Source: Parvibaculum sp.
Lineage (GTDB): Bacteria; Pseudomonadota; Alphaproteobacteria; Parvibaculales; Parvibaculaceae
Assembly: GCA_017642695.1 (NCBI GenBank)
Contig: JAEPQD010000002.1
Span: 310,001 to 374,000 of the forward strand
DNA length: 64,000 nucleotides
Reading direction: 5' to 3'
Every line of letters begins with the position of its first letter. The stretch's first letter is position 1. Positions 39,302 to 64,000 of the stretch are shown here, piece after piece. The notes beneath the pieces were generated by a model, which saw only the letters and a program-made list of their open reading frames with translations, ran no database searches and had not been told where the DNA came from. The position numbers and the translations under genes were made by a program.

Positions 39302-40594
39302 ATGGCAAATGTGGCGGTAGTCGGCTCCCAGTGGGGAGACGAGGGCAAGGGCAAGATCGTGGACTGGCTGTCGGAGCGTGCCGATGTCGTGGTGCGCTTC
39401 CAGGGCGGGCATAATGCGGGCCATACGCTCGTCATCGACGGCGTCACCTACAAGCTCTCGCTGCTGCCATCGGGCATCGTGCGCAAGGGCAAGCTCTCCA
39501 TCCTCGGCAACGGCGTCGTGCTCGATCCCTGGGCCTTCGCGAAGGAAGTGGACGAGATCGCCTCCAAGGGCGTGAAGGTCACGCCCGAGAACCTGAAGAT
39601 CGCCGAGAACGCCGTTCTGATCCTTCCCGTCCACCGCGAACTCGACGAGATGCGCGAAGGCTCGAATTCCGGCGTCAAGATCGGCACCACCAAGCGCGGC
39701 ATCGGCCCGGCCTATGAAGACAAGGCCGGCCGCCGTGCGATCCGCGTGATCGACCTTGCCGACCCGTCGACGCTGCCGATCAAGGTCGAGGGGCTGCTCG
39801 CGCATCACAACGCGATCCGCCGCGGCAACAATCTGGAGGAACTCGCACCGGGCCCCATCGTCGAGGCGCTGAAGGAGATCGCGCCGCGTGTGCTGCCTTA
39901 CGTCGCGCCGGTCTGGCGCGTGCTCGACGAGGCGAAGCGCAACGGCCACCGCATCCTGTTCGAGGGCGCGCAGGGCACCATGCTCGATGTCGATCACGGC
40001 ACCTATCCCTTCGTCACCTCCTCCAACACGGTGGCGGGGCAGGCGGCGGGCGGCTCCGGCGTCGGCCCGGGCGCCATCGGCTATGTCCTCGGCATCACCA
40101 AGGCCTACACGACGCGCGTCGGCGAGGGCCCGTTCCCGACCGAGCTCACCGACGAGACGGGTCAGCGGCTCGGCGAGCGCGGCCACGAGTTCGGCACCGT
40201 CACGGGCCGCAAGCGCCGTTGCGGCTGGTTCGATGCGGTCATGGTCCGTCAGGCGATCAAGACCGGCGGCATCACCGGCATCGCGCTGACGAAGCTCGAT
40301 GTGCTGGACGGTTTCGACGAGATCAAGGTCTGCACGGCCTATGAGGTCGATGGGCAAAGGCTCGATCACTTCCCGGCGGGCATGGATGCGCAGAAGAAGG
40401 TCAAGCCGATCTACGAAACGCTCGAGGGCTGGCAGGACAGCACGCAGGGTGCGCGTTCCTGGGCGCAGCTTCCCGCCGCCGCCGTCAAGTATGTTCGCTA
40501 TGTGGAAGAACTGATCGAGGCGCCCGTCGCGCTTCTCTCCACCTCGCCCGACCGCGAGGACACGATCCTGATGACCGATCCCTTCGCGGATTGA
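39302..40594 (+). CDS. purA: Adenylosuccinate synthetase (housekeeping)
   Basis: GTP-dependent condensation of IMP with aspartate to adenylosuccinate, the first step from IMP to AMP. The 430-residue product has [18 protein letters not shown] with the catalytic D13 and [12 protein letters not shown] with H41, plus [38 protein letters not shown] and the [11 protein letters not shown] loop. All expected residues are present. It starts at 39302; longer in-frame starts lack family support. It is the reference copy against which the altered PurA-like domain at 57.6-58.8 kb stands out. Confidence 0.97.
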
Positions 40595-50724: not shown

Positions 50725-50821
50725 GCCCCGTTCTCGCGCAGACGTGAAGGCTGACAGGGCTTTTCGCGGGGCGTAGGCTTGCCTACATCAGGGACAAGCG
50801 CTCAGAGAAGGAGGCCGCCCC

Positions 50822-51481
50822 ATGTTCAATCTCCGCCGCAAGACCGAAATGCCCGCGCCCGGCGACGCGCTGCCCGGCCGCGATTTCGAGATTCCGACCG
50901 CGTCGAAGCATTTCGTGAACGGCGCGGACCTGAAGGGGCCTTATCCGCAAGGCATGGAGACGGCGATCTTCGGCCTCGGCTGTTTCTGGGGCGCGGAGCG
51001 GAAGTTCTGGCAGCTGCCCGGCGTCCATGTGACGGCGGTGGGCTATGCGGGCGGCATGACGCCGAACCCCACTTACGAGGAAGTCTGTTCCGGCCGCACC
51101 GGGCACAACGAGGTCGTGCTCGTCGTCTACGATCCGAAGAAGGTTTCCTACGAGACGCTGCTCAAGACCTTCTGGGAAAGTCATGACCCGACGCAGGGCA
51201 TGCGCCAGGGCAACGATGTCGGCACGCAGTACCGCTCGGGCATCTATGTCACGAGCCCCGCGCAGAGGAAGCTCGCCGAGGACGCGAAGGCGATGTACGA
51301 GGCCGAGCTCGCGAAACAGGGTTACGGCGGCATCACCACCGAAATCCTCGACGCGCCCGCCTTCTACTTCGCCGAGGACTACCACCAGCAATATCTCGCG
51401 AAGAACCCGGCCGGCTATTGCGGCCTCGGCGGCACCGGCGTTTCCTGCCCGATAGGGACCGGCGTCAGCGCGGCGGAATAG
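50822..51481 (+). CDS. msrA: Peptide-methionine (S)-S-oxide reductase MsrA
   Basis: Repairs oxidised methionine in proteins by reducing the S-sulfoxide. The 219-residue product carries [18 protein letters not shown] with the catalytic C54, the substrate-binding TGHNEVV, and the recycling region near the C-terminus ([13 protein letters not shown], with two Cys). Length is normal. AAGGAGG lies upstream. The AT-richer TIR-like gene starts four bases after its stop, so that insert may ride on msrA transcription. Confidence 0.95.
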
Positions 51482-51485
51482 AAGA

Positions 51486-52775
51486 GTGAAGATTTTTTGG
51501 TCTTGGCAATCGGATACGCCCGGGAAAACCGGGCGTTTCTTTGTTCGCGAGGCGATTGAGGACGCGATAGCCAAGCTAAAGTCAGAGGACACAGAGGTTG
51601 TCGAGCCCACAGCTGCGACGAACAGAGCGGACTTGCACCTTGATCATGACCGACAAGGGGTGCCGGGCAGCCCGGATTTGGCATCTACCATTCTTGCCAA
51701 GATAGATGCCGCAGTAGTTGTTATTGCTGATGTTACGCCGGTCGGTCAGTCGGCAGTAGCAAAAGGAGTGCCTCCTAAGAAACTAATAAACTCGAATGTG
51801 GCAATCGAGCTTGGATATGCGCTTGGCGTGCACTCGAGTGAGCATTTGTTGATGGTGCTTAATGAACATTACGGAGGGCGGGATGATCTTCCATTTGATC
51901 TTAAGCACAAAGCCGGCCCAGTCATCTATACCTTGGCACCCGACGCAGAAGCAGAAGAAATTCGTGCGGAGAGAAAGAGACTTGCCGACAAGTTCGTGAA
52001 TGCGCTTCGGCCTTACCTAGAAGCACTGACCGAAGATCCGGTCGAGGTAGTAAGACAACCTGCTAAGGGAAGCGCTGCAACTTGGGCTGAAGACTCCGAG
52101 GTGCTGCTCACTATCGGTGATTCTTTTGACAAATTAGGGTTTGTTCTTCCTGCTTCGCCACTTCTTTACCTCCGGGTGGCACCACTTAGGTTACGGAGTG
52201 CTCCTTTGTCCCGGACTGCGATGGGGGCCGCAGTACGTGAAATCTCCACGTTTGGTCGCGGAGGTGGGATGAATGGACAAAACATTTATGGTGCCGTTCA
52301 TCTGAATCCGTTTGGGAGCCCTGTCGCCGGGGGAGCAACGCAGAAGTCTGCTTCGGCGGTGCAAATTTTCTCTAGTGGAGAGATATGGGGAGCGAACTAT
52401 GAGTACGTTCGGGGTGCCCCCATTCAAGGCGATTTATTGTGTATGCCAACACAAGCCATTGAGCGGTTATTCAGAGAACGTTTGGTTGAGTATCTGTCGG
52501 CAGCGAAAGAAAAACTAGGAGTTGAAGGGCCTTATTGGGTGAAGGCCGGAGCCGAAGGAATTGGCGGTTACTATCTCGCGATGCCGCAAGAGTTTGACCC
52601 GATGCACTGGGGGCCGATCCATGACAACCAATTTAGTGTTGAGGGCACCGTCAGTAATCATTCTGATCAGTCGGGAACTAATCAGTTTTTGCTCAGGGTG
52701 TTTGAGAAAATATTTGATCTGACCGGATATCAACGTCCGAAGCGGCTCTACAATTTTCCTGAAGCTGACGAATAG
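51486..52775 (+). CDS. AT-richer gene: TIR/deoxyribosyltransferase-like domain protein, putative defence effector
   Basis: A 429-residue protein starting (GTG) [20 protein letters not shown]. Residues 1-150 match a Rossmann-like domain family known by SWQSD (6-10), [12 protein letters not shown] (55-66), IADV, and [13 protein letters not shown] (102-114, E108), which recalls the NAD/nucleoside-hydrolysing fold of TIR and nucleoside deoxyribosyltransferase proteins, where a Glu in an ELGYA-like motif is catalytic. The C-terminal 250 residues are unassigned. Base composition is visibly more AT-rich than its neighbours, so it was probably acquired. Defence role is inferred. Confidence 0.65.
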
Positions 52776-52791
52776 ATATTGGCGCGCCGCC

Positions 52792-53922
52792 TCAATCCGG
52801 CAGGTTGCCGCCTTCGGGGTGCGGCCCGGGCAGCGGGCGGCCGTCGATGAAGATCGAGAATTTGCGTAAACCTTCGATCTGCGCGAAGCAGGTGTTCATC
52901 ATCACGAGGATGGGCACCGCCAGCACCGCGCCGATCACGCCCCACATCCAGCCCCAGAAGACGATGGAGAGGAACACCACTGCCGCGTTCAGCGTGTGGC
53001 GGCGGCCGAGGATCGAGGGCGTCACGAATTGCGACTCGATCAGGTTCCAGAAGAAGTAGATCGCGGGCGCCATCAGCGCCTGGCCGAGATCGTCGAAGGC
53101 GATGAAGCCGACAAAGCCCGTCAGGATCATGCCCGCCGCCGCGCCCGCATAGGGGATGAAGTTGAGGAGCGCCGCCGCCACGCCCCAGAGCGCCGCGTTC
53201 GGCAGGCCGATCGCCCAGAGCGAGGTGCCGATGGCGACGCCGAGGCCCGCATTGATCAGCGAGATCGAGAGCAGGTAGGTCGAGATTTCGCGCTCCATGC
53301 TGCGGAGGATGCGCCGCGCCTTTTCCTTGTCGGTCAGGCGCTTTGCCGAGCGGATGATGCGGTCGCGCAGGAGCTCGCCGGTCGCCAGCAGGAAATAGAG
53401 CAGCACGATGAAGATGAGGAACGACGCGCCCTTCTGGCCCGCGGCTTCCATCGCCTGTTCGATCAGCCCCGGCTCCTTCATCACCACGGCCTGCGGTTCG
53501 GGGCCGCCATTGGTGATCTCCTCCACCTGCTTGGAGGCCTTGCGCATCGCCGCGACGGGCTTCGAGATCTCGCTCGATTTCCGCTCGAGCTGTTCCAGCG
53601 CGGCGGGGATGCGGCCGGTCCATTTCGCGGCGGGCTCGGCGAGCGCCCAGGCCGCGCCGGCGAGCGCGCCCACGATCAGCGCGACGATGATGGCGGCCGA
53701 CGCCGCCTCCGGCAGGAAGCGGAAGGGAATGGCGCGCATCAGCGGCATGAAGATGAAGCTCGCCACCACCGCCGCCACGATGGGCGCGACGAGGTTCTGC
53801 GCGAGAAAGGCCGTGTAGAGGATGGCGAGAATGGCCAGAATGGCGAGCGAGGTCTCCGCCCGCATGACGCGCGTGCGGATGCTGCGGCCGCCGGAGCGCT
53901 CCGTATCCGGATGATCTGTCAA
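52792..53922 (-). CDS. AI-2E family (PerM-like) transporter
   Basis: A 376-residue inner-membrane protein with about eight hydrophobic segments. TSLAILAILAILYTAFLAQNLVAPIVAAV opens the membrane part, and IVLLYFLLATGELLRD, LLNFIPYAGAAAGMILTGFV and LIESQFVTPSILGRRHTLNAAVVFLSIVFWGWMWGVIGAVLAVPI are family signatures. Members export or exchange autoinducer-2 or act as ion transporters; the ligand here is unknown. I place the start at TTG 53922; the inner ATG at 53865 is an alternative. The 5' side holds the repeat at 54090-54310. Confidence 0.85.
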   Translation of the reverse strand: MTDHPDTERSGGRSIRTRVMRAETSLAILAILAILYTAFLAQNLVAPIVAAVVASFIFMPLMRAIPFRFLPEAASAAIIVALIVGALAGAAWALAEPAAKWTGRIPAALEQLERKSSEISKPVAAMRKASKQVEEITNGGPEPQAVVMKEPGLIEQAMEAAGQKGASFLIFIVLLYFLLATGELLRDRIIRSAKRLTDKEKARRILRSMEREISTYLLSISLINAGLGVAIGTSLWAIGLPNAALWGVAAALLNFIPYAGAAAGMILTGFVGFIAFDDLGQALMAPAIYFFWNLIESQFVTPSILGRRHTLNAAVVFLSIVFWGWMWGVIGAVLAVPILVMMNTCFAQIEGLRKFSIFIDGRPLPGPHPEGGNLPD

Positions 53923-54089
53923 GGTCTTGTGCCCGGCATGTGGTCCACGAAGTCGCCTCCGGCCCTCTGGCTGTGACCGGAAGACCCGGTTGCACTGCTT
54001 CAACGGATAGGCCGCGCAAGGGTTCCGCAATGCCGGAAACCCGCTCGCAATCCCGCTTGCCGCGCTCGCCGGCAGGAAAGGGGGTTTCA

Positions 54090-54310
54090 CGCAGAGGCGC
54101 AGAGAAGGTTTGGCACACGGAGACATGGAGACACGGAGAAGAGAATGTGTTTTCACGCGGAGGCGCGAAGAGGGGGAAGGGAAGAATGGGAATGGCGCTT
54201 CGCGCCGATGAACCTTCGCGCCGCAGGCGCAATCCAATCTTCTCTTCTCCGTGTCTCCGTGTCTCCGTGTGAAAACACATTCTCTTCTCTGCGGCTCTGC
54301 GCCTCTGCGT
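54090..54310. repeat. Modular inverted repeat between the AI-2E and rpoH genes
   Basis: The segment 54115-54144, with its three CGGAGACA-like units, and 54241-54270 are reverse complements at 29 of 30 positions. Nearby, AGAGAATGTGTTTTCAC (left, about 54140-54156) matches the reverse of a right-hand copy near 54270-54287, and the ACGCAGAGGCGCAGAG module flanks both sides (54090 and about 54295-54310). Module order differs between the arms, so it is a permuted, palindromic repeat, possibly a mobile or structural element with no coding content. Confidence 0.7.
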
Positions 54311-54334
54311 GCCCAATCTTTCTTTGGCTAGAAC

Positions 54335-54363
54335 AAAAAAGGCCGCCCCGGTTGGAGCGGCCC
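54335..54363 (-). terminator. Rho-independent terminator after rpoH
   Basis: Read on the minus strand, the complementary arms GGCCGCTCC and GGGGCGGCC enclose a four-base loop and are followed by six T residues. It lies 27 bases past the rpoH stop. Confidence 0.88.
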
Positions 54364-54389
54364 TTTCGATCTGGTGTCCCGGAAAAGCC

Positions 54390-55322
54390 TCAGAAATCCG
54401 CCAGCGCCTCGCGCCGCTGGTCGGCCTGTTCGCGCATGGCGTTCTTCATCGCCTTTTGCAGCTTCTCGAAGGCGCGCACCTCGATCTGGCGCACACGCTC
54501 GCGGCTGATGCCGTATTCCTGGGAGAGGTCTTCCAGCGTCGCCGGTTCGTCCTTCAGGCGGCGCTCCGTCAGGATGTGCATTTCGCGCTCGTTCAGCGTT
54601 TCCATGGCGGCCGCCAGCATTTCGCGGCGGAGCTCCATCTCCTCGCTTTCGCCGAGCGTGGCTTCCTGGTCGGCGGCGTCGTCGACCAGCCAGTCCTGCC
54701 ACTCGCCGCTTTCGGAATCCTGCCGCAGCGGCGCGTTCAGCGAGTTGTCGGGCCCTGCCATGCGCCGGTTCATGGAGATCACCTCGTCCTCGGTCACGCC
54801 GAGCCGTTCGGAAATCTCCTTCACCTGTTCGGGGTGGAGGTCGCCATCCTCGATCGCCTGGATCTGGCCCTTCACCTTGCGCAAGTTGAAGAAGAGCTTC
54901 TTCTGCGCGGCGGTCGTGCCCATCTTCACCAGCGACCATGAGCGCAGGATGTATTCCTGGATCGAGGCGCGGATCCACCACATGGCATAGGTCGCGAGCC
55001 GGAAGCCTTTCTCCGGCTCGAAGCGCTTCACGGCCTGCATCAGGCCGACATTGCCTTCGGAAATCACCTCGCCGATGGGCAGCCCGTAGCCGCGATAGCC
55101 CATGGCGATCTTCGCCACGAGGCGCAGATGGCTCGTCACCAGCTGGTGCGCGGCCTCCGTGTCCTCATGTTCCTTCCAGCGCTTCGCCAGCATGTATTCC
55201 TGCTGCGGCTCCAGCATCGGGAACTTGCGGATTTCCTGCAGGTAGCGCGACAGCGACCCTTCCGGGTTCGGCGCGGGCGCCAGCAGCTTCGAGGCGGGCT
55301 TTGCAGTCTTTGCTTCGGCCAT
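54390..55322 (-). CDS. rpoH: RNA polymerase sigma-32 factor RpoH
   Basis: Heat-shock sigma factor, 310 residues. Region 2 contains EGNVGLMQAVKRFEPEKGFRLATYAMWWIRASIQEYI (about residues 80-120), the RpoH box AAQKKLFFNLRKVK (about 133-146) distinguishes it from RpoD/RpoE, and the region 4 helix-turn-helix ends LSQEYGISRERVRQIEVRAFEKLQKAM. In alphaproteobacteria it controls heat shock and oxidative responses, and is degraded by FtsH, whose gene is at 15.1 kb. The start at 55322 (MAEAKTAKP) is preferred. It is divergent from the foreign three-gene island. Confidence 0.95.
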   Translation of the reverse strand: MAEAKTAKPASKLLAPAPNPEGSLSRYLQEIRKFPMLEPQQEYMLAKRWKEHEDTEAAHQLVTSHLRLVAKIAMGYRGYGLPIGEVISEGNVGLMQAVKRFEPEKGFRLATYAMWWIRASIQEYILRSWSLVKMGTTAAQKKLFFNLRKVKGQIQAIEDGDLHPEQVKEISERLGVTEDEVISMNRRMAGPDNSLNAPLRQDSESGEWQDWLVDDAADQEATLGESEEMELRREMLAAAMETLNEREMHILTERRLKDEPATLEDLSQEYGISRERVRQIEVRAFEKLQKAMKNAMREQADQRREALADF

Positions 55323-55736
55323 GAAAGACCCCCAATCCGGCCCTGGGGCGCTCCCGGGGAAAGCCCCCGGAGCCCCAAACGGGCCCGTTCGTACCATATC
55401 CGGCCCCTTCCCGGGGCCCCGCCGGTGAAATACCCGACGAACTCACTCAGGCTATCAGACACCCAAACGCGGGCAGAATCATGACGGTTTCCGCCAGAAC
55501 CCGGGCGCGAAATGTCGCAGAAGGCGGCGCGAATGCCCCACCGCAAGCCTATATGGGCGCGGGGAGCCGGGAGTTAAAGAGCGGGCGCTATGGAAGAAGA
55601 GTTCCACTATAGATAATTTCGAGTAATTCTAAAGATTGACTAGGGTGTATTAAACACTCAATTGTGTGTGTAAATTTGAGACAAGTGGTTTTGAGAGCGG
55701 TGCTGGTGGGTCGAAACAAAGAAACTGCCCTCCTGA
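55323..55736. promoter_or_regulatory. rpoH upstream region and left border of the foreign island
   Basis: This 414-base gap between divergent genes begins GC-rich (rpoH side, to about 55590) and turns sharply AT-rich at about 55595-55680, marking the left border of the acquired block. It should hold the rpoH promoter and one for the island. A short palindrome, GGTGTATTAAACACT, lies at about 55645-55658. No integrase, tRNA or direct repeat was seen at this edge. Confidence 0.45.
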
Positions 55737-56510
55737 GTGTTCTCCAGCGCCGTGTTCAGCGATCTCGAACTTATCCCTGAGGCTTCCGTGGGAATACTTG
55801 AAGACGCCGGCATTGAAGCGGTCCGTCACTACGCGCCACTGCACTATCTTCCGTTTATTGCGCGATCCCGTCTCTTGATGTGCAAACCAGCACTACGTGC
55901 TCAAGGCTTTGCGCCTTCGCACCTGCGCTCGATGTCGAGCAAGCACGATCGGAAGCGCGGGTTTGGCGAATACGCCTTCTTAACTCTCGACAGGTCCGCG
56001 CGCATCTTGGCGGCGAAGCTCGATGCGGGTTTTCCTCATTGTGCGATCGAAGTGCCAGCTTCTGCTTTCGAAACGCTGGAGTTCCACTTGTGCCGCTACA
56101 ACGTAGCGATGACCCGCTATCTCAAGCGTGGGAACAGGCACGGATTCCCTGAGTCGGACGTAAACGGTAGATATTACGGCGATAAGCAGATTCCAATCGC
56201 CAAAGTGGCTAAGGACAAGGCGGCGATGCTCGCTCATCATCTTCCTCTTGGAACGATGATTGAGGTCCTGGTCCCTGGAAACCTTCCTCTCACTGACGAA
56301 GTGAAAGTGCTCTGTTACTCCAAACAGGACGCGCAGATTGCGCAACGTGTTCTGGGGGCATTGACTGTCCCGTGGGAGGTCGATGTAATCGATCCGCCTA
56401 CGGTATATAACCGAGATGCGGATTATGCGTCCGCAGTTGAGAACTTTGTTTCTGTTGCATTGCGTGATCCCGACTGGAAAGGAAACGGTCTTGAATTTGA
56501 TCGGGTGTGA
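55737..56510 (+). CDS. DarT-like (DUF4433-type) ADP-ribosyltransferase candidate
   Basis: A 257-residue protein; the GTG at 55737 is the longest start, GTG 55752 an alternative; neither has a clear ribosome-binding site. HYAPLHYLPFIARSRLL (residues 31-47) recalls the N-terminal H-x-[TA]-x-x-x-NLxxI NAD-binding entry of DarT, and IEVLVPGNLPLTDEVKVL (175-192, E176) resembles the DarT segment that carries the catalytic Glu. DarT enzymes add ADP-ribose to single-stranded DNA bases in toxin-antitoxin and phage-defence systems. No DarG macrodomain antitoxin is nearby. It overlaps the next gene by four bases at most. Fold assignment is by eye. Confidence 0.5.
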   Translation: MFSSAVFSDLELIPEASVGILEDAGIEAVRHYAPLHYLPFIARSRLLMCKPALRAQGFAPSHLRSMSSKHDRKRGFGEYAFLTLDRSARILAAKLDAGFPHCAIEVPASAFETLEFHLCRYNVAMTRYLKRGNRHGFPESDVNGRYYGDKQIPIAKVAKDKAAMLAHHLPLGTMIEVLVPGNLPLTDEVKVLCYSKQDAQIAQRVLGALTVPWEVDVIDPPTVYNRDADYASAVENFVSVALRDPDWKGNGLEFDRV

Positions 56511-56512
56511 GC

Positions 56513-57064
56513 ATGCAGTTGCTACTTTTGATGAGTGGTCCCGTCGCTGTTGGTAAGTCCGGGGTGGCTCGACAACTTGTTTCTGACCATGGATTTCAGC
56601 GCATCGGAACAGGCGACTTGCTTCGGGTGCATTTAGAGAAAGAGGGGTTGTCAAAAAGCAGAACTGACCTCCAGGGACTGGGTGACCGTTTCGACGAAGA
56701 GACGGATTTTTATTGGGTGGTTCAGAGAGCTGATGAAGCAATCGCAGCACTTGAAGCGCAGCAAGTCTGGATTCTTGATGCGGTGAGAAAGAAGCGGCAG
56801 GTCGAGCATTTTAGAAAAAAGTTCGGCGACTCAGTTGTGCATGTGCACTTCGTTGCTCCGGAGGAAGTGCTCAGAGAAAGGTATGAGCAGCGACTAGCTG
56901 CAGGTGGAGAGTATGTGGGGAATACCACTTACGAAGAGGCAATCCGCCACCCCAACGAAATTGCGGCCCGGAGCTTGGAGGAATTAGCTGATTACGTTGT
57001 CGATTTGACGACCATGATGCCGCTCGAAGCAGCGGCTCATGTCGCTCGCCTTACAAAGGGGTAA
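56513..57064 (+). CDS. P-loop nucleotide/nucleoside kinase-like protein of the island
   Basis: A 183-residue protein. Walker A is GPVAVGKS (residues 9-16); the following RIGTGDLLRVHL segment resembles the NMP-binding entry of adenylate-kinase-like enzymes, and ILDAVRKKRQVEHF with D89 plays the Walker B-like role. A late segment, VLRERYEQRLAAGGEY, fits the lid/base region. It is paralogous to the N-terminal domain of the next gene (shared D-x-VR, FR and HVHF pattern). Start at ATG 56513 or GTG 56507 overlapping the previous stop. Likely a small nucleotide kinase; substrate unknown. Confidence 0.7.
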   Translation: MQLLLLMSGPVAVGKSGVARQLVSDHGFQRIGTGDLLRVHLEKEGLSKSRTDLQGLGDRFDEETDFYWVVQRADEAIAALEAQQVWILDAVRKKRQVEHFRKKFGDSVVHVHFVAPEEVLRERYEQRLAAGGEYVGNTTYEEAIRHPNEIAARSLEELADYVVDLTTMMPLEAAAHVARLTKG

Positions 57065-57070
57065 GAACGT

Positions 57071-58804
57071 ATGCGTCAGATCGTTCTAATTTCAGGACAT
57101 ATTTGTGTTGGCAAGTCCAGCTTAGCCAAAAGTCTAGAGAAACGATTTGGGTACCACCTGATCAGATCAAGTGGCGCAATTAAAGAGCTGAAGCGTGAAC
57201 GACCCTCCCTTGGCCGGCTTGAATTGCAGGACGCAGGTGACGAGCTAGACAGGGACTCAAATCACAAATGGTTGCTGGACTTCGTCATTGAACAGATGAA
57301 ATCAGTCGATCCCTCTCGTCCCGTTGTCGTCGATAACGTAAGAAACAGCACACAGCTTCGCGCTTTTCGCGAACAGCACGATTTTGAAACAATCCATGTG
57401 CACCTGTATGCGAACAACGAAATACTAGAGGCACGCTACGCTGCCAAGCAGGGGGAAAATCCTAAAGAAAAGGACATTGCTTATCCGGATGCAGACCTAA
57501 TTAAAAACGAAGATGAGATCCGGTATTTCCAGAATGACGCAGACGTACGAATCTTTACTGGCCGCTCTGATCAGGAGGATGTGCTCGTTCGTGTTGCAGC
57601 GCATCTTGGCCTGTATCCTCCCGGGGACATAAGAACCGTAGACGTCATAGTTGGCGGTCAATATGGAAGCGAAGGCAAGGGACACGTGGCTGGATATTTG
57701 GCGCGCGAGTATGACGTGTTGGTTCGCGTCGGGGGGCCAAACGCAGGTCATACCGTTTCAAGTGCTCTAGGTGTAATTACGTACCACCAACTTCCTTCGG
57801 GAGCTGAAGATACAGATGCAAAGCTTCTGCTGGGACCGGGGATGACGATAAGGGTTCCAGCTCTTCTCAAAGAAATAGAATTAAGGAAGGTCACTCCCGA
57901 ACGACTCTTCATTGACCCTCAAGCAATGATCATTGAGCAGGAAGACATTGAGGAAGAGCAAGCTCTGGTCAAAGGCATCTCTTCAACGGGGCAAGGTGGC
58001 GGAGCGGCTGCGGCTCGGCGGATAATGGGTCGTAACCCGGATCGCCGGGGCAGCTGTCTTTTTGGAAAGACTCCTCCGAGAGTCCGGTTGGCGCGAGATG
58101 TGGAGGAGCTAAGACCGTACGTGGGAGAAGGCCCGATTTACAGAGGGTCGACGGTTGCTAGGTTGGAAGAAGCATACCGTCGAGGAGACTCGATCCTGCT
58201 AGAAGGGACCCAAGGTAGTGGGCTCAGTTTATTTCACGGGTTGTATCCGCACGTCACTTCACGTGACACTAATGTTGCAGGTTGTTTGGCGGAAGCGGGA
58301 ATATCGCCCAGTCGTGTTCGTAAAATTCTGATGGTCGTTAGGTACACTCCGATCAGAGTTGCCAATTCAGTGAATGGGAATACCTCGGGCCTGTTAAAGC
58401 ATGAGGTGACGTTCGAGGAAGTTGCTGACCAGGCAGGAATAGACGCAAATGAAGTGAAAGAATCTGAGAAAACATCAACGACACGCCGAGATCGACGGGT
58501 CGGTTGGTTTGAATGGGAGCAGTTTAGAAAGGCATGTGCCCTGAACGCTCCAACGGATATTGTTCTAACCTTTGCCGACTATATTTCCGCAGAAAACCGC
58601 TCTGCGAGAAGATTCGATCAGCTTCCAGGTAAGACGATCAAATTCATTGAAGAGTTGGAGACCGTTGCGCAGGCACCGGTTTCGTTAGTGAATATTCGAT
58701 TTCCGAGAGAGGCCAGCGAGCGCTTCGATTTGAGAACGCTTATAGATCGACGAAATTGGACTACGCAAAAAAGATTGAAGGAAGCAGCAAGCTTTATGCG
58801 GTGA
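57071..58804 (+). CDS. Fused nucleotide kinase - PurZ-like adenylosuccinate synthetase
   Basis: A 577-residue fusion. Residues 1-185 are a P-loop kinase (GHICVGKSS 9-17; VVDNVRN with D88). Residues about 190-577 are an adenylosuccinate-synthetase fold: GGQYGSEGKGH (196-205), GGPNAGHT with H227, STGQGGGAAAARR, EGTQGS, VTSRDTN and RRDRRVGW correspond to PurA landmarks. The catalytic Asp of PurA (D13 in the window's own purA) is S200, and the Arg in TTxRG is Gln, as reported for phage PurZ, which couples dGMP to aspartate. It therefore may use a (d)GMP-like nucleotide rather than IMP. GGGG at 57058-57061 precedes the ATG. AT-richer than its host. Confidence 0.75.
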   Translation: MRQIVLISGHICVGKSSLAKSLEKRFGYHLIRSSGAIKELKRERPSLGRLELQDAGDELDRDSNHKWLLDFVIEQMKSVDPSRPVVVDNVRNSTQLRAFREQHDFETIHVHLYANNEILEARYAAKQGENPKEKDIAYPDADLIKNEDEIRYFQNDADVRIFTGRSDQEDVLVRVAAHLGLYPPGDIRTVDVIVGGQYGSEGKGHVAGYLAREYDVLVRVGGPNAGHTVSSALGVITYHQLPSGAEDTDAKLLLGPGMTIRVPALLKEIELRKVTPERLFIDPQAMIIEQEDIEEEQALVKGISSTGQGGGAAAARRIMGRNPDRRGSCLFGKTPPRVRLARDVEELRPYVGEGPIYRGSTVARLEEAYRRGDSILLEGTQGSGLSLFHGLYPHVTSRDTNVAGCLAEAGISPSRVRKILMVVRYTPIRVANSVNGNTSGLLKHEVTFEEVADQAGIDANEVKESEKTSTTRRDRRVGWFEWEQFRKACALNAPTDIVLTFADYISAENRSARRFDQLPGKTIKFIEELETVAQAPVSLVNIRFPREASERFDLRTLIDRRNWTTQKRLKEAASFMR

Positions 58805-58831
58805 AAGAGCTTCGATAGACTGACTCCTTAG

Positions 58832-59917
58832 TCACCCCCCCAACTCCCGCACCAGCTCCCTCATGTCCTCCGGCAACGGAGCATCGAAGCTCATCTTCTC
58901 TCCCGTCACCGGGTGCTCGAACCCTAAGTGATGCGCATGGAGCGCCTGCCGTCCGAGTCGTGTCAGCGCGGCCCGTGCGCCGTCGCTCAGTTTTGTGGCG
59001 CGGCTTTTCATGCCGGTGCCGTAGGTCGGGTCGCCCAATAGCGGATGTCCGAGCGCCGTCATGTGGACGCGGATCTGGTGCGTGCGGCCCGTCTCCAGCC
59101 GGCATTCGATTTCCGCGACGAGGCCGCCGGCGAATTCCCGCTTTACCGTGTAATGCGTGATCGCGCGGCGCCCGCTCGTCACGTCGTCGCCGTCCTCGTC
59201 GAGCCGCGTCTTCAGCGCCGCCATCTTCGAGCGGTTGTGGGACGAGCGCGCGATGTTCGCGTCGATGGTGCCGCGCTTCTTCGCGGGCGCGCCCCAGGTG
59301 AGCGCCGTATAGGCCCGCGTGAGCTTGCCGTCGCGGCCATGCGCGGCGAACTGCGCCGCGAGCCCGCGATGCGCGCGGTCCGTCTTCGCGACCACCATCA
59401 GCCCGCTCGTCTCCTTGTCCAGCCGGTGGACGATGCCCGGCCGCCGCTCGCCGCCGATGCCCGACAGCGTCGCCCCGCAATGCGCGACAAGCGCGTTGAC
59501 GAGCGTCATGTCGGGGTTGCCCGGCGCGGGATGGACGACGAGCCCCGCCGGCTTCATCACCACGATCAGCTCCGCGTCCTCGTAGACGACGTCGAGCGGG
59601 ATCGCCTGCCCCGCGGGGCGCGCGGGCGCGGGCGGCGGCACCGTCACTTCGATGCGCTCGCCGGGCTTCACGCGGTAGGCGGGGTCTGCCGCCGGGCGCG
59701 GCCGCGTCTCGCCCACCAGCGTCACGCGGCCTTCCTCGATCAGCTGCTTCACACGCGCGCGCGACAGCACCTCGCCCGCGCTCTCGCCGGATGCGCCTTC
59801 AACCTTGCGGGAGAGCGCCTCCGTGAGATACTTGTCGAGCCGCGCGCCGCCTTCGTCGCTGCCGACGGTGAGCGCATGGGTCTTTTCAGGGGAAGCATCG
59901 GGGGCAATCGGCATCAT
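58832..59917 (-). CDS. rluD: 23S rRNA pseudouridine(1911/1915/1917) synthase RluD-type
   Basis: A 361-residue RluA/RluD-family enzyme that converts uridines in helix 69 of 23S rRNA to pseudouridine. The N-terminal S4-like RNA-binding domain (ARLDKYLTEAL, SRARVKQLIEEGRVTL) precedes the catalytic core, whose Asp is in GIVHRLDKETSGLMVVAKT; ECRLETGRTHQIRVHMTALGHPLLGD is the other conserved block. Start at 59917 (MMPIAPDA). rluD followed by rpoH is a common alphaproteobacterial order, here interrupted by the foreign island. Confidence 0.94.
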   Translation of the reverse strand: MMPIAPDASPEKTHALTVGSDEGGARLDKYLTEALSRKVEGASGESAGEVLSRARVKQLIEEGRVTLVGETRPRPAADPAYRVKPGERIEVTVPPPAPARPAGQAIPLDVVYEDAELIVVMKPAGLVVHPAPGNPDMTLVNALVAHCGATLSGIGGERRPGIVHRLDKETSGLMVVAKTDRAHRGLAAQFAAHGRDGKLTRAYTALTWGAPAKKRGTIDANIARSSHNRSKMAALKTRLDEDGDDVTSGRRAITHYTVKREFAGGLVAEIECRLETGRTHQIRVHMTALGHPLLGDPTYGTGMKSRATKLSDGARAALTRLGRQALHAHHLGFEHPVTGEKMSFDAPLPEDMRELVRELGG

Positions 59918-60323
59918 GGCCAATGATACAACATCCGCTTCCGATGCGTCTCCCGGGACGTCCGGCGCCGCGCCCGAGCCCACGGGCATGAACACGCCCG
60001 CAAACATCCGCCGGCTGAAATTCGTCGTCGCGGGGCTCGGCGCCGTCCTCGTGCTCGGCTTTGCGGTCATCGTCGCCGTCATCATCCAGCGGGCCAGCAA
60101 CATGGGCGAGCGCCGGGCCGCCCTGCCCGCCGGTCATTTCGGCGTTTCCCGCGTCGGCATCGCGCCGGGCGAAACCGTCCGCTCCGTCACGCTCGGCGAT
60201 GGCCGCCTCGCGATCCATGTCGGCAGCGACAGCGCCGAAGCCGTCATCCTGATCGACCCGAAGACCGGCGAGGAACTCGGCCGGGTCCTGCTCGCGCCCA
60301 TGTCGGATTTCGCGGCGCGCTGA
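59916..60323 (+). CDS. DUF6476-type small membrane protein
   Basis: A 135-residue protein with an unstructured Ser/Thr/Pro-rich N-terminus and one membrane helix (about residues 34-55, KFVVAGLGAVLVLGFAVIVAVIIQ). The C-terminal part, LPAGHFGVSRVGIAPGETVRSVTLGDGRLAIHVGSD..AVILIDPKTGEELGRVLL, resembles the small DUF6476 proteins found divergent from rluD in many alphaproteobacteria. The start ATG 59916-59918 overlaps the rluD start on the other strand. Role unknown. Confidence 0.75.
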   Translation: MANDTTSASDASPGTSGAAPEPTGMNTPANIRRLKFVVAGLGAVLVLGFAVIVAVIIQRASNMGERRAALPAGHFGVSRVGIAPGETVRSVTLGDGRLAIHVGSDSAEAVILIDPKTGEELGRVLLAPMSDFAAR

Positions 60324-61206
60324 CGCGCGGCTGGAGGCACTGGGTCTCGTCCCACCCGCCCACCTTGGCGGCTTGTCCGCCAAGGCGAACAAGATGGGGG
60401 GCGGGGGAGGCGGCATGCGCAGGAGCCCCCGCCCGAAACCTGCTTCGCTGACGCTCGCAACTTTCGACCCTCCCAAGGGGAGCGTGGTCGCCAAAAACCG
60501 GGGACAAGTTTTTTCGTCCACGGCACCCGAAAGTGCACCGAAGACACGGGGACATCTTTTTCGCGGCCTCACCCAACCCTCCGGTGTCATCCCGGCGAAA
60601 GCCGGGAACCATGGGCGGTGCGTCCCATGTGACGGTCTCGTGACAGTTCGGTGACGGTCCGCCGGGGATAAGCCGGGCGCGCGCCGATTCCGCCCGTGCG
60701 GTCAGGGCGTTAGGGGCGGGGACAAGTGTTATCCCCGGCCATTGTGACGGTCCGCGCACGCAAAAAACGTCGCGTGGGGCCAATTGCCCTGTGATTTCAA
60801 CGATTTATCGGGGAGGGGAGGGTGCCGCCGGCGCCGGGGGAGGAGGGAGGATGGCGCCGGCGGCAATCTGAAAGCTACCAGTCGGGGAGGAGGTCGACCG
60901 GCGTTTCGTGAGACAAATATCGCCCTCGAATGACAGTTTGTCAATTGGGTTTTTGTTGCGTTGCAAAAATGTAATTCAGTCTGGGATGCGTGTGGGTTGC
61001 AGTATAACCCATTGATATCATTAGTGAGAATCTTGAAAATGCGGAGCGGTAGAGCGCGAAAAACCCCCAGGTGCGGTCGAATGACGCAGTGCGGGGTGCT
61101 GTTTTTAGGGGCTGTGCCCTAGGCGCAACGGTCGCTTCCGGCGGCCTCTCACGATTGCCCTTGCGCCGCTTTCCAAGCCGTCATAGAAGGAGCGCCGCAC
61201 TGGTCC
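60324..61206. other. Large non-coding stretch with hairpins upstream of tRNA-Glu
   Basis: About 880 bases with no convincing gene. Visible items are a short hairpin TCCCGGC-GAAA-GCCGGGA (60590-60607), which resembles dispersed palindromes of alphaproteobacteria, and a perfect GC-rich inverted repeat at 60823-60865. From about 60900 to 61050 the DNA becomes AT-rich, possibly a promoter for the tRNA. No RNA gene other than the tRNA was recognised. Confidence 0.5.
60823..60865. repeat. Perfect 13-bp inverted repeat with G-run loop
   Basis: TGCCGCCGGCGCC (60823-60835) and GGCGCCGGCGGCA (60853-60865) are exact reverse complements, separated by a 17-base purine-rich loop, GGGGGAGGAGGGAGGAT, whose G-runs could form a G-quadruplex. 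It lies in a gene-free stretch and has no T-run, so it is not a plain terminator. Confidence 0.75.
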
Positions 61207-61282
61207 GTCCCCTTCGTCTAGCGGTCCAGGACGTCGCCCTCTCACGGCGAAAACAGGGGTTCGAGTCCCCTAGGGGACGCCA
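61207..61282 (+). tRNA. tRNA-Glu (anticodon CTC)
   Basis: Acceptor arms GTCCCCT and AGGGGAC pair, followed by an encoded CCA tail. The anticodon stem TCGCC/GGCGA holds loop CTCTCAC with anticodon CTC at its centre, and the T arm AGGGG-TTCGAGT-CCCCT is intact. It reads GAG codons for glutamate. The neighbouring DNA shows no integrase or truncated tRNA copy. Confidence 0.95.
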
Positions 61283-61313
61283 GTTCTTTCAATAAAATCA
61301 ATCGCTTGTGGCG

Positions 61314-61724
61314 TCAGAGGTAGGCGTTGACCGCCTGTATCGCGAGCGCGATCAGGGCGCCGGCCCACAGCACCACCGTCGCCACGAGGCCGATGGTGAA
61401 GCCGGTCGAGCGGTTCAGCGCGGCGGCATAGTAGCCGCGGGCGTAAACCACTCTGCCGATTGGATAAATCAGGCCGATCGCTGCCGCCCAGAGGTCGCCC
61501 AGCGTCAGCGCGAAGAGCCACAGCGCCGGCAGGAAGATCAGCAGGTTCTCGGCCGTGTTGCCCTGAACCCTCAGTACACGGAGGAAATCGTCCGGCCCGT
61601 CCATGCGCGGCGCCGGAATCCCGTGTGTTGCCCGTGCCTTGCCGACCTTGAAGGCCATCCAGAAATAAACGATGAGCGTCAGAAGCGTGACCAGGCCGGT
61701 CAGCGGATAAGCGAATGGAGTCAT
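61314..61724 (-). CDS. MAPEG-family membrane protein (copy 3)
   Basis: A 136-residue integral membrane protein with four helices. RVQGNTAENLLIFLPALWLFALTLG and YPIGRVVYARGYYAAALNRSTGFTIG match the MAPEG pattern of an N-x-x-E/N helix and a YxxR turn. Start at 61724 (MTPFAYPLTG). It is only loosely similar to the two MAPEG proteins at 41.2-42.2 kb. Substrate unknown. Confidence 0.82.
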   Translation of the reverse strand: MTPFAYPLTGLVTLLTLIVYFWMAFKVGKARATHGIPAPRMDGPDDFLRVLRVQGNTAENLLIFLPALWLFALTLGDLWAAAIGLIYPIGRVVYARGYYAAALNRSTGFTIGLVATVVLWAGALIALAIQAVNAYL

Positions 61725-61803
61725 GATGGTCTCCCCGATGCGTTGTCCGCACAAAGAAGATCAGCTTGCCGTGATTCCGGCAATGAAAAGAAGAGGTTGC
61801 CCG

Positions 61804-62634
61804 TCAGGGCGAGACGCCGGCCTCGAGCGCGCGGATGCGCTCCATCAGCGCCTTGTCGCCGATATGGCTGTCGCTTGCCTGGGCCGTGCCGGTGCGGCCG
61901 TCCCTGCTGCGCTCGCCCGGCGCGGGGGTCTCGTCCGCCTCATCGTCCGGCGGCGTTTCGTCTTCACTTTCAAAGGCTTCCGGGTTGTCCAGGCCCATCG
62001 CATCGAGCCGGGCGAGCGAGGCCTTCACCTCCGCCAGCGTGCGCGCATCGGCCGCCGCGTCGTCCTCCAGGTCCCGGTCGGCGGGATAGGGCTCAAGTAC
62101 CTGTACCGCCTCGCCTTTCGACGGTTCCAGGGGCGGCGCCGGGACGCGGGCGGGCTGTTCTGTCCGGGCGGTCTCGTCGTGCCGCGCCTCGTTCGTGATC
62201 GCCGTCTCGAGACCATCGAGCGCGCGCCGCACCGCCGCCAGCCGTTCCGCGCGCTCCGTGGCGGCGCTTTCGATGTCGCCGCGCAGCGTCGAGAGTTCGG
62301 CCTTGAGCCGCTTCACCTCGTTCGCCAGGTCCTTGTTTTCACTGGCAAGTTTCGCATTCGCGTTGGCCAGTTCCTCGTTTGCGCCGGCGAATTCCCGGTG
62401 CTCGGCGCGCAGCGTTTCGAGCTCGGCCTGCAGCGGCGCCCGCTCGCGCTCCTGCCGGCTCAGCAGCTCGTCCATTTCCCTGGTTTTGGCCGCTTTTTCG
62501 GCTTCGTCCCCGTCGCCGGCCAGCTGCAGCGTCGTCACCCTCACGGCCCGGCGCCAGACGAACTGCGCCGCGATGATCGCGAACAGCGTCGCAACCAGAA
62601 AGCCAAGCGCCATCAGCATCAGGCTCTCGATCAT
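61804..62634 (-). CDS. Membrane-anchored coiled-coil protein, unknown function
   Basis: A 276-residue protein with one N-terminal membrane helix (MIESLMLMALGFLVATLFAIIAAQFVWRR) followed by a long coiled coil (about residues 45-145, with LETLRAEHREFAGANEELANANAKLASENKDLANEVKRLKAEL) and an acidic, Pro-rich C-terminal tail that is probably disordered. Such topology suits a scaffold facing the cytoplasm. Not recognised as a named family. It lies between the MAPEG and EipA-like genes. Confidence 0.65.
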   Translation of the reverse strand: MIESLMLMALGFLVATLFAIIAAQFVWRRAVRVTTLQLAGDGDEAEKAAKTREMDELLSRQERERAPLQAELETLRAEHREFAGANEELANANAKLASENKDLANEVKRLKAELSTLRGDIESAATERAERLAAVRRALDGLETAITNEARHDETARTEQPARVPAPPLEPSKGEAVQVLEPYPADRDLEDDAAADARTLAEVKASLARLDAMGLDNPEAFESEDETPPDDEADETPAPGERSRDGRTGTAQASDSHIGDKALMERIRALEAGVSP

Positions 62635-62734
62635 GGGGTCCCCGCACCGTTCAGAAGCTGCGCCAGACTGCCAGAAAAGGCGCTGACCTTCCACCGCGCG
62701 GCGGGGCCGCGCGGGCTTTTCGGCGAGGGCTGCG

Positions 62735-63349
62735 TCAGAACGGCAACCATTCCCGCGACTTCGTGTATTTCAGGTAGCCGACCGAGGCGCCGAGCCGGAG
62801 GCCGACGCCGGAGCGCATCGGCGCCAGCACCACATCGTCGCGCTGCTGGTAGTTGATGCCGATACCGCCCACCAGATAGGCGCTGCCTTCCACGCCCGGA
62901 TAGCGGCGATAGATCGTCTCGCCGTCCGGCAGGTTGTAGACCAGCGTGAAGACCTTGACCGCGTTGCCGCCGAAATCCCATCCGGCGCTCGGGCCCTGCC
63001 AGAAGACCTTCTTGCGCGTGCCCTCCTTCATCACCAGTTCGCCCTGCCCATAGCGCAGGCCAACAACGAAGGCGCCGCTTGCCTCCTCGCCCTTGATATA
63101 GGCGTTGGGTTCGCCGTATTCCTCGAAAATGCTGTGAACGGCATCCGCCAGCCCTTCCGAAACGGCACCGAAGAAATCGCCTGCTTCCTTGACGATTTCG
63201 TCTTCCTTGTAGGTGTCGCCGGATTGCCCGTTCGACTGGGCCATGGCAGGGGCAGCGGCAAAGGTCAGCATCGCAAGCGCCGCGAAGGCCCATGCGGCCC
63301 CGCGCATTGCATTGAATTTATCCCCTGTCCGGATATTCGTGCCCATCAT
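62735..63349 (-). CDS. EipA-like (DUF1134) envelope protein
   Basis: A 204-residue exported protein. The N-terminus (start 63349, MMGTNIRTGDKF) ends in a signal peptide, FAALAMLTFAAAPAMAQ. The mature domain, EAGDFFGAVSEGLADAVHSIFEEYGEPNAYIKGEEASGAFVVGLRYGQGEL and YLVGGIGINYQQRDDVVLAPMRSGVGLRLGASVGYLKYTKS, matches the DUF1134 family, of which Brucella EipA is needed for cell-envelope integrity and is found in the periplasm. AAGGAACGAAGG lies upstream. Confidence 0.85.
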   Translation of the reverse strand: MMGTNIRTGDKFNAMRGAAWAFAALAMLTFAAAPAMAQSNGQSGDTYKEDEIVKEAGDFFGAVSEGLADAVHSIFEEYGEPNAYIKGEEASGAFVVGLRYGQGELVMKEGTRKKVFWQGPSAGWDFGGNAVKVFTLVYNLPDGETIYRRYPGVEGSAYLVGGIGINYQQRDDVVLAPMRSGVGLRLGASVGYLKYTKSREWLPF

Positions 63350-63493
63350 GCCTTCGTTCCTTCTGGTAGCTGCGCGGATGCGCCATCGAATCGCCGCCAA
63401 TCGGTGTCAAAGTCTATAGTAGAATCACAACGATCGAGGCACGGCCATAGTGACGGGACAGCATGGCGAAACGGTGACCGGAAGAGGGCAGCG

Positions 63494-64000
63494 ATGCTGG
63501 TCCGGCGAAAGGATTCTGGGCGCGTGCTGAAATCCTGGAAGGGCCGAATTCTACTCTTCTTCTGCGCTTTCCTGCTGCTGGCGGGCGGAGCGGCCGTCTA
63601 TGTCTGGCAGCAGCGCGCGCCTCTCGCGGAAGAGATGATTGGACGCGTGCTGGCGGAGCGCGGGATCGCGCCCGTTTCCTTTCGTGTTTCGTTCATCGGG
63701 CTGCGGAGCATCACTCTCACGGACATCGTTATCGGTCCCGAGTCGTCACCGGATTTGGCTGCCGACAAGGTGGTGGTCTCCTATTCGCTCGGCGAACTCC
63801 TGTCGGGCAATGTGCAATCCATCAGCGTCGGCGAGGCGCGCGCCCGCGTTCGTTTTTCCGGGGAGGGCATCTCAATCGGTGCGCTCGACCCGCTGCTCGA
63901 AGGTGAAGGCGGTGGCGGTCCGCTCCGGTTGCCCTTGATCGATGTCGAACACGTTGTCATCGACGTGGAGACGCCACGCGGAAATGCCGTTCTGGCGGGG
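63494..64000 (+). CDS. YdbH-like AsmA-superfamily protein, N-terminal part (runs off the right edge)
   Basis: At least 169 residues, open at the window end. It starts MLVRRKDSGRVLKSWKGR, then a single membrane helix (about 18-40, ILLFFCAFLLLAGGAAVYVW), then a periplasmic stretch with strand-rich text: RGIAPVSFRVSFIGLRSITLTDIVIGPE and ADKVVVSYSLGELLSGNVQSISVGEARARV. This is the style of YdbH/TamB/AsmA-like proteins that bridge the envelope and move lipids. The function of this copy is inferred from its N-terminus only. Confidence 0.65.
   Translation, partial: MLVRRKDSGRVLKSWKGRILLFFCAFLLLAGGAAVYVWQQRAPLAEEMIGRVLAERGIAPVSFRVSFIGLRSITLTDIVIGPESSPDLAADKVVVSYSLGELLSGNVQSISVGEARARVRFSGEGISIGALDPLLEGEGGGGPLRLPLIDVEHVVIDVETPRGNAVLAG

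Follow-up and report, generated by a model that had tools for sequence, protein, structure and literature searches.

A kinase-PurZ-like fusion beside a DarT-like gene in a Parvibaculum insertion slot: a candidate anti-phage operon

The three-gene operon and its kinase-synthetase fusion

The window, meaning the whole 64,000-nucleotide stretch of the Parvibaculum sp. contig that was analysed, contains an operon of three forward-strand genes, with open reading frames (ORFs) as called by a simple longest-ORF script. The first gene (55737..56510, + strand) encodes a DarT-fold ADP-ribosyltransferase-like protein of 257 residues as called, whose homologues begin near residue 18. The DarT fold was found by a fold test; the protein has no family match in Pfam (E up to 1) or in PHROGs, NCBIfam and PADLOC (E up to 0.1), some or all of which perhaps have no DarT model, and no relatives of its family were found in plasmids or viral contigs. 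The second gene (56507..57064, + strand), which overlaps the first by 4 nt and ends 6 nt before the third, encodes a stand-alone P-loop nucleotide kinase of 185 residues. The third gene (57071..58804, + strand) is an open ORF of 577 residues with an ATG start, in which a P-loop nucleotide kinase (residues 1 to about 189; Pfam AAA_18 at residues 5-134, 2.3e-10) is followed by an adenylosuccinate-synthetase-like domain (residues about 190-577; Pfam Adenylsucc_synt, 2.6e-48 over two stretches, the best being 192-318). The stand-alone kinase is homologous to the N-terminal domain of the fusion (hhalign, 100%, 7e-59). A DarT-fold ADP-ribosyltransferase-like protein, a P-loop kinase and a second kinase fused to a PurZ-type synthetase are all present by sequence or model. 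Kinase activity is not certain, because a similar P-loop domain sits in the model of the anti-phage dCTP deaminase, which itself matches the kinase domain weakly (E 1.6e-5). The profiles built from relatives detected no macrodomain partner and no HD or MazG-like partner in the window.

Within the synthetase domain, residues 195-204 read GGQYGSEGKG, and Ser200 of this motif, encoded by the codon AGC at 57668..57670 (+ strand), aligns with the catalytic Asp13 of Escherichia coli PurA. The genome also encodes an ordinary PurA outside the cassette (39302..40594, + strand) that keeps the Asp. A preliminary description of this DNA had reported both this replacement and the joining of a kinase to a chromosomal PurZ-type synthetase; the first is confirmed by the codon and the alignment, the second by the Pfam domains and the active-site residues. 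The same description pointed to Gln in place of Arg131, which is indeed what the window copy has, but the residue proves not to be diagnostic, as other fusions carry Gln, Ser, Lys, Arg or Met there.

Active site and family placement of the synthetase domain

The Ser for Asp replacement is a property of the family. All 85 fusion proteins that show a Q-type motif (73 genome loci, 8 plasmid, 3 viral and 1 from the window) have Ser at the Asp13 place, as do seven further fusion loci whose motif Gln differs, while one locus (L069) is a broken frame without the motif; in nine aligned fusions, a subset of the 85, the motif Ser is invariant. These counts are partly biased because one of the two genome-scan patterns includes the Ser, the other being VGGPNAGH. 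Ser is nevertheless found in every fusion recovered free of that bias, that is, in the eight plasmid fusions obtained by tblastn, the seven variant loci that only VGGPNAGH could find and two loci from a profile search. The Ser is thus neither a sequencing slip nor a feature of one degenerate copy.

The other active-site positions were read from an alignment of 84 fusion rows, the second fusion copy of locus L052, one of the 85, having been dropped by its label; that locus, in an archaeal metagenome-assembled genome, holds two convergent fusion genes. Position 131 varies (Gln in 45 rows, Ser in 29, Lys in 7, Arg in 2 and Met in 1) and is Gln in PurZ of phage phiVC8 and Ser both in PurZ of phage S-2L and in an archaeal PurA that keeps Asp13, so that on these alignments Gln at 131 is weaker evidence than Ser at 13. 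Lys16, Asn38, His41 and Gln224 are kept in 84/84 fusions, and this conservation suggests that the synthetase domain is a working enzyme. No aligned counterpart of Arg143, the residue that PurA contributes across the subunit interface, was found in the 84 rows. The window copy shares Ser128 and Thr298 with phage PurZ, position 298 being the PurA-like Gly rather than Thr in 15 of the 84. At position 303 the window copy and 58 of the 84 rows retain the Arg that touches the ribose side in PurA; Asp333, also PurA-like, is found in the window copy and in 83 of the 84. Given these two residues, the substrate of the window enzyme may be a ribo- or a deoxynucleotide and the phosphate donor ATP or GTP. 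Position 331 is Phe in 82 of the 84, as is the adenine-stacking Phe of S-2L PurZ. The S-2L enzyme acts on dGMP, and its corresponding Ser lies beside the 2-amino group of the base at 3.7 Å, beyond hydrogen-bonding distance, where it is described as a presumed aid to specificity (PMC8342488). Based on the S-2L-like Ser and Phe331, a 2-amino purine is the likely substrate of the fusion synthetase; with Arg303 kept, the (d)GMP-type substrate predicted in the preliminary description is a conjecture as far as ribose or deoxyribose is concerned.

We built an unrooted tree of 71 proteins, in which 33 of 33 fusions lie on one side of a branch with support of 100/100 and seven of seven PurA rows lie on one side of another at 100/99. 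The PurZ proteins of phiVC8, S-2L and SH-Ab group together, apart from the fusions, with support of 100/100, and that of Arthrobacter phage HunterDalle falls among the viral unfused rows. The preliminary description took loss of the Asp for the known mark of PurZ, and this agrees with the change from Asp to Ser given for 100% of 147 phage PurZ sequences in PMC12884076. It does not follow that the fusion belongs to phage PurZ: it misses the NCBIfam PurZ cut-off (NF038379, 202.3 vs 300 bits) and forms a clade of its own, and is therefore PurZ-like by active site yet outside phage PurZ. Compared with succino-2-amino-dAMP synthetase (PurZ) of phiVC8, S-2L and SH-Ab 15497 and with the HunterDalle type, the fusion shares Ser at 13, the window copy Ser128 and Thr298 as well, and the window Phe331 stands at the base-stacking place as it does in phiVC8, S-2L and SH-Ab. 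The fusion differs in its motif, which is GSEGKG rather than GSTGKG (phiVC8, S-2L and SH-Ab) or GSEAKG (HunterDalle), and in being a separate, kinase-fused and cellular clade that lies beside an ADP-ribosyltransferase-like gene rather than among phage replication genes. Beside this family we observed, on a Sinorhizobium medicae plasmid (L007:7995-9035, + strand), an unfused Ser-type PurZ-like protein that belongs to a different cellular PurZ-like module and has genes for an HD/YfbR-like, a ThiF-like and a weakly dCTP-deaminase-like protein nearby.

The relation to PurA is likewise one of family only. The fusion resembles bacterial and archaeal PurA at the family level and in most active-site residues but lacks the catalytic Asp, and its best sequence matches in the PDB are archaeal PurA structures (5k7x/2d7u). 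That the protein is simply a PurA paralogue, still converting IMP to adenylosuccinate, would fit its Pfam Adenylsucc_synt matches, but we consider this highly improbable: Asp13 is lost in every readable fusion copy, none of the five PurA equivalog cut-offs of the NCBIfam list is reached (the best being PRK04293 with 244.9 vs 368 bits; TIGR00184 gives 174.9 vs 395.55), the fusions form a separate clade, and a full-length ordinary PurA was found in 44 of the 46 fusion-bearing genomes searched (8/8 and 36/38; no such match in G083 and G087), so that the fusion is not the housekeeping enzyme. An ordinary PurA or a sequencing slip was accordingly rejected as an identity for the gene. The alignment and phylogeny that had been suggested as a check place the fusions outside the PurA clade with the Ser kept, and not as a PurA that has lost one residue.

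The fusion is sparse and widely scattered. A species-genome scan gave 414 relatives, the best 80 of which were the loci analysed; tblastn added eight plasmid records with a full-length fusion at about 40% identity (Rhizobium, Agrobacterium, Sinorhizobium and Methylobacterium), and the profile search gave two new fusion loci and a third match, G393, that appears to be the contig of L012. Of 398 genomes sampled from the phylum, the profile search found the fusion in four, its own among them; of 27 genomes in the genus, one has the kinase domain of the fusion. By tree labels, some of them from metagenome assemblies, the clade has members in Pseudomonadota, Acidobacteriota, Planctomycetota, Verrucomicrobiota, Chloroflexota, Actinomycetota, Myxococcota, Synergistota and Bacteroidota and in archaea; one Pseudomonas putida assembly holds two fusion loci (L023 and L027). 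Among viral contigs, three of the best 80 of 211 relatives match the whole fusion, so that the family does at times travel in viral or mis-binned contigs; P0001 alone as the query of a viral scan gave no match, and in a phage collection none of 218 matching records covers 80% of the fusion query. Phage cargo or a prophage remnant was rejected as an identity for the cassette, there being no phage gene recognisable by eye among the ORFs of 50000-64000 and no full-length fusion in the phage collection.

Insertion slot and defence neighbours

The GC content is 51.6% in the cassette and 62.6% in the window as a whole, and the 3 kb of the window that are poorest in GC (51.3%, beginning at 55601) overlap the cassette. 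The cassette is flanked by ORFs taken by eye as rpoH (54390-55397) and rluD (58832-60103). In eight sister genomes, picked for assembly quality, the gap between these two genes is 144-179 bp in three, where the slot is empty, and 2.9-4.1 kb in five, and each of the five holds a different cargo, namely a HEC-07 candidate; a PDC-S31 candidate with an unmatched gene; a NaeI-type restriction enzyme with a C5 methylase; SLATT and PCTIR (PDC-S35) proteins; and a HipA-like protein with weak PADLOC matches only. The rpoH-rluD slot (55397-58832 in the window; L202-L208 in the sisters) is thus an insertion hotspot for defence genes and candidate defence genes. One hotspot protein of 496 residues (L203:1435-2925, - strand) has no Pfam or PADLOC match and is a possible new defence gene. 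Elsewhere in the window, the ORF at 51486-52775 (429 residues) is a second low-GC gene, about 50-53% vs about 65% around it, which matches nucleoside deoxyribosyltransferase weakly (E 0.004) and the TIR domain of CAP12/PCTIR more weakly still (E 0.11) and has no PADLOC match; possibly it is another horizontally acquired conflict gene.

The surroundings of the relatives were compared with controls by taking the four longest non-module ORFs of 120-900 residues from 20 of the 80 loci, the controls being stretches at arbitrary round coordinates in the same 20 genomes. The 80 flank ORFs matched 312 PADLOC families at E 1e-10 or better and the 80 control ORFs 26, these being counts of families and not of proteins, inflated by redundant type I restriction-modification models. 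The annotated neighbours of the plasmid fusions include AbiE, SIR2, AbiJ-like proteins and UvrD/AAA pairs. These defence neighbours bear on a further explanation, in which the operon would serve secondary or salvage metabolism by a purine-analogue route like that of a Rhizobium leguminosarum deazapurine cluster with a PurA-like gene. The cluster in question lies on a plasmid (L008:4410-16285) and comprises folE, queC, queE, 6-carboxytetrahydropterin synthase, IMP dehydrogenase and purB genes and a gene for a short PurA-like protein, and it is the company of PurA-like and PurB genes with those for FolE, QueC, QueE and 6-carboxytetrahydropterin synthase that lends the explanation some weight. 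However, the PurA-like protein of L008 keeps Asp13 and falls on the PurA side of the tree, and the fusion loci keep a DarT-like or DUF7002 partner and defence neighbours instead, so that we regard a salvage role as very unlikely; identity with the deazapurine cluster was rejected, the enzyme being a different one with its Asp kept.

We tentatively propose, at a little short of even confidence, that the genes at 55737-58804 form a horizontally moved conflict operon, most likely anti-phage, that couples a base-modified purine nucleotide to a DarT-like effector.

Partner genes and the proposed function

Among the best 80 of the 414 relatives, with partners counted as profile matches anywhere in the fetched locus, DUF7002 occurs in 74 and a DarT-like protein in 6, and no locus has both or neither. 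With the six DarT-like loci placed at random among the 80, the chance that they are exactly the six that are devoid of DUF7002 is 3e-9 if kinship among loci is ignored. In 73 of its 74 loci DUF7002 is no more than 400 nt away from the fusion ORF, and in 72 the two share a strand. Profile comparison, made twice, detected no sequence kinship between DUF7002 and the DarT-like protein, and a sequence search of the PDB with DUF7002 gave no convincing match (best E 0.014); from the look of its motifs and its strict exchange with the DarT-like gene, our guess is that DUF7002 is an ADP-ribosyltransferase.

A partner so constant allows for a different division of labour, which we take as the main rival to the modified-nucleotide reading. 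Specifically, the kinase-PurZ protein might be chiefly an antitoxin or sensor that binds (d)GMP or NTP and holds the ADP-ribosyltransferase, a change of the nucleotide pool upon infection would free the toxin, and synthesis would be secondary or lost. The presence of DUF7002 or the DarT-like protein in 80/80 loci and the tight, toxin-antitoxin-like gene order in 73 of the 74 DUF7002 loci (both among the best 80 of 414) are what such a metabolic guard would give, as is the weak match of the kinase domains to the anti-phage dCTP deaminase model; moreover, an antitoxin-like macrodomain partner is found in only 44 of the 80, so that the other loci need another restraint. On the other hand, Lys16, Asn38, His41 and Gln224, kept throughout the 84 rows, suggest a working enzyme, and DUF7002 stands apart from any nearby fusion in 2 of 10 plasmids, and overall we hold the guard to be unlikely. 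The two plasmids are of Streptomyces (L236:6001-6645) and Caballeronia (L237:6001-6642), where no fusion is annotated within 6 kb of DUF7002.

The macrodomain partner is a protease-macrodomain protein, present in 44 of the best 80 of 414 relatives and no farther than 400 nt away in 38, whose matches are strong in 41 loci and weak in L016, L037 and L039, which perhaps encode other proteases. The N-terminal region of the protein has matches to Peptidase_M78 in Pfam and to CapP in PADLOC; the macrodomain that forms the C-terminal region is closest to PDB entries 2afc, 2fg1 (BT1257) and 5e3b (4e-47 to 5e-45), the last of which is SCO6735, reported to remove the thymidine ADP-ribose made by DarT (PMC9411070). 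This gives a likeness to DarTG, in the DarT fold of the first gene and in the SCO6735/BT1257-type macrodomain of those relatives. The window operon differs from DarTG in having no DarG, a DarT-like protein with no family-model match and, as the constant partner, the kind of enzyme that modifies purine nucleotides.

The remaining partners among the best 80 of 414 relatives are the second kinase (34/80), a Nudix protein (12/80) and a MazG/PRA-PH-like protein (5/80). All eight fusion plasmid loci and two further loci encode an HD/YfbR-like protein and a 455-residue protein, the HD type being found in none of those 80 genome loci. The 455-residue partner, C25 (L002-L006, L009-L011, L233 and L235), has by eye the look of an ATP-grasp/PEP-synthase-type fold, and a Pfam search with one member gave no match. 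The Nudix, MazG-like and HD partners recall DatZ and MazZ, the helpers of phages with 2-aminoadenine (Z) in their DNA (PMC8342488). They also suggest a base swap, in which dZTP would enter DNA and the ADP-ribosyltransferase would distinguish DNA rich in Z from DNA poor in it, or phage replication would be poisoned by the Z nucleotide itself. The MazG-like or HD partners of some relatives parallel the phage Z-clusters, and datZ-mazZ-purZ expressed in E. coli is described as putting 2-aminoadenine into host DNA with toxic effect (PMC8342488). But the MazG-like partner is confined to 5 of the best 80 of 414 loci and the profiles found neither it nor an HD partner in the window, which leaves the base swap improbable.

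The essence of the modified-nucleotide reading is that the synthetase would join aspartate to a 2-amino purine mononucleotide, GMP or, more likely, dGMP from DNA broken down by the phage, to give N6-succino-2-amino-(d)AMP, which the cellular PurB could convert to the 2-aminoadenine nucleotide. Phosphorylation of a mononucleotide by the kinase domains would lead towards the di- or triphosphate. The base-modified nucleotide would then most likely signal infection, and so release or aim the ADP-ribosyltransferase. In the relatives that have them, the Nudix, MazG-like or HD hydrolases might provide dGMP or remove the signal, and reversal or restraint of ADP-ribosylation might fall to the protease-macrodomain protein. 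We read the product as a signal because the DarT-like effector is encoded close to the synthetase and because this reading unites the parts of the operon; that the window operon itself has no macrodomain partner, hydrolase or PurB counts against it, as do the DUF7002 genes with no fusion nearby on two plasmids, the failure to detect kinship between DUF7002 and the DarT-like protein, and the weak or missing PADLOC matches of the HipA-like and 496-residue hotspot proteins. The fullest form of the idea, a widespread cellular immune system in which the PurZ-type enzyme and the kinases turn phage-freed dGMP into a 2-aminoadenine (or succino-2-aminoadenine) nucleotide that activates the DarT-like ADP-ribosyltransferase as a signal or poison, we put forward as a possibility, and a rather doubtful one.

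By analogy, the closest described logic is that of the dITP-signalling system Kongming, where a deoxynucleotide is modified in its base, phosphorylated and linked to an NAD-using effector (PMC12948488). The likeness is one of described logic only, since the window has a PurZ-type synthetase with built-in kinases, not KomA and a phage kinase, and a DarT-like protein, not KomBC. In the anti-phage dCTP deaminase, too, a nucleotide-modifying enzyme carries a P-loop domain, but there the modifying domain is a deaminase, not a PurA-fold synthetase.

A search of open-licence full texts found no description of such a system. PMC12884076 describes PurZ-type enzymes from phages, with four archaeal PurZ-group sequences as basal relatives; its sampling took in at most two PurA homologues from each phylum of prokaryotes, and no words beginning 'kinase' occur in its available text. 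PMC13092281 presents other nucleotide-modifying defence candidates, and the word 'adenylosuccinate' is absent from its available text and from that of PMC9503650. Single members of the family may already have been seen, because a note in the phiVC8 record likens its PurZ to a Solibacter protein.

Judged from sequence, these DUF7002- or DarT-linked kinase-PurZ partnerships, spread over several phyla of bacteria and found in some archaea as well, have the appearance of an anti-phage system that has so far gone undescribed. That the active-site change of PurZ exists in a cellular clade bears directly on the question of where phages got PurZ. If our proposal is true, modified purine nucleotides would belong to bacterial immunity, and the Z-DNA chemistry of phages would find its counterpart, and perhaps its origin, in the immunity of cells.
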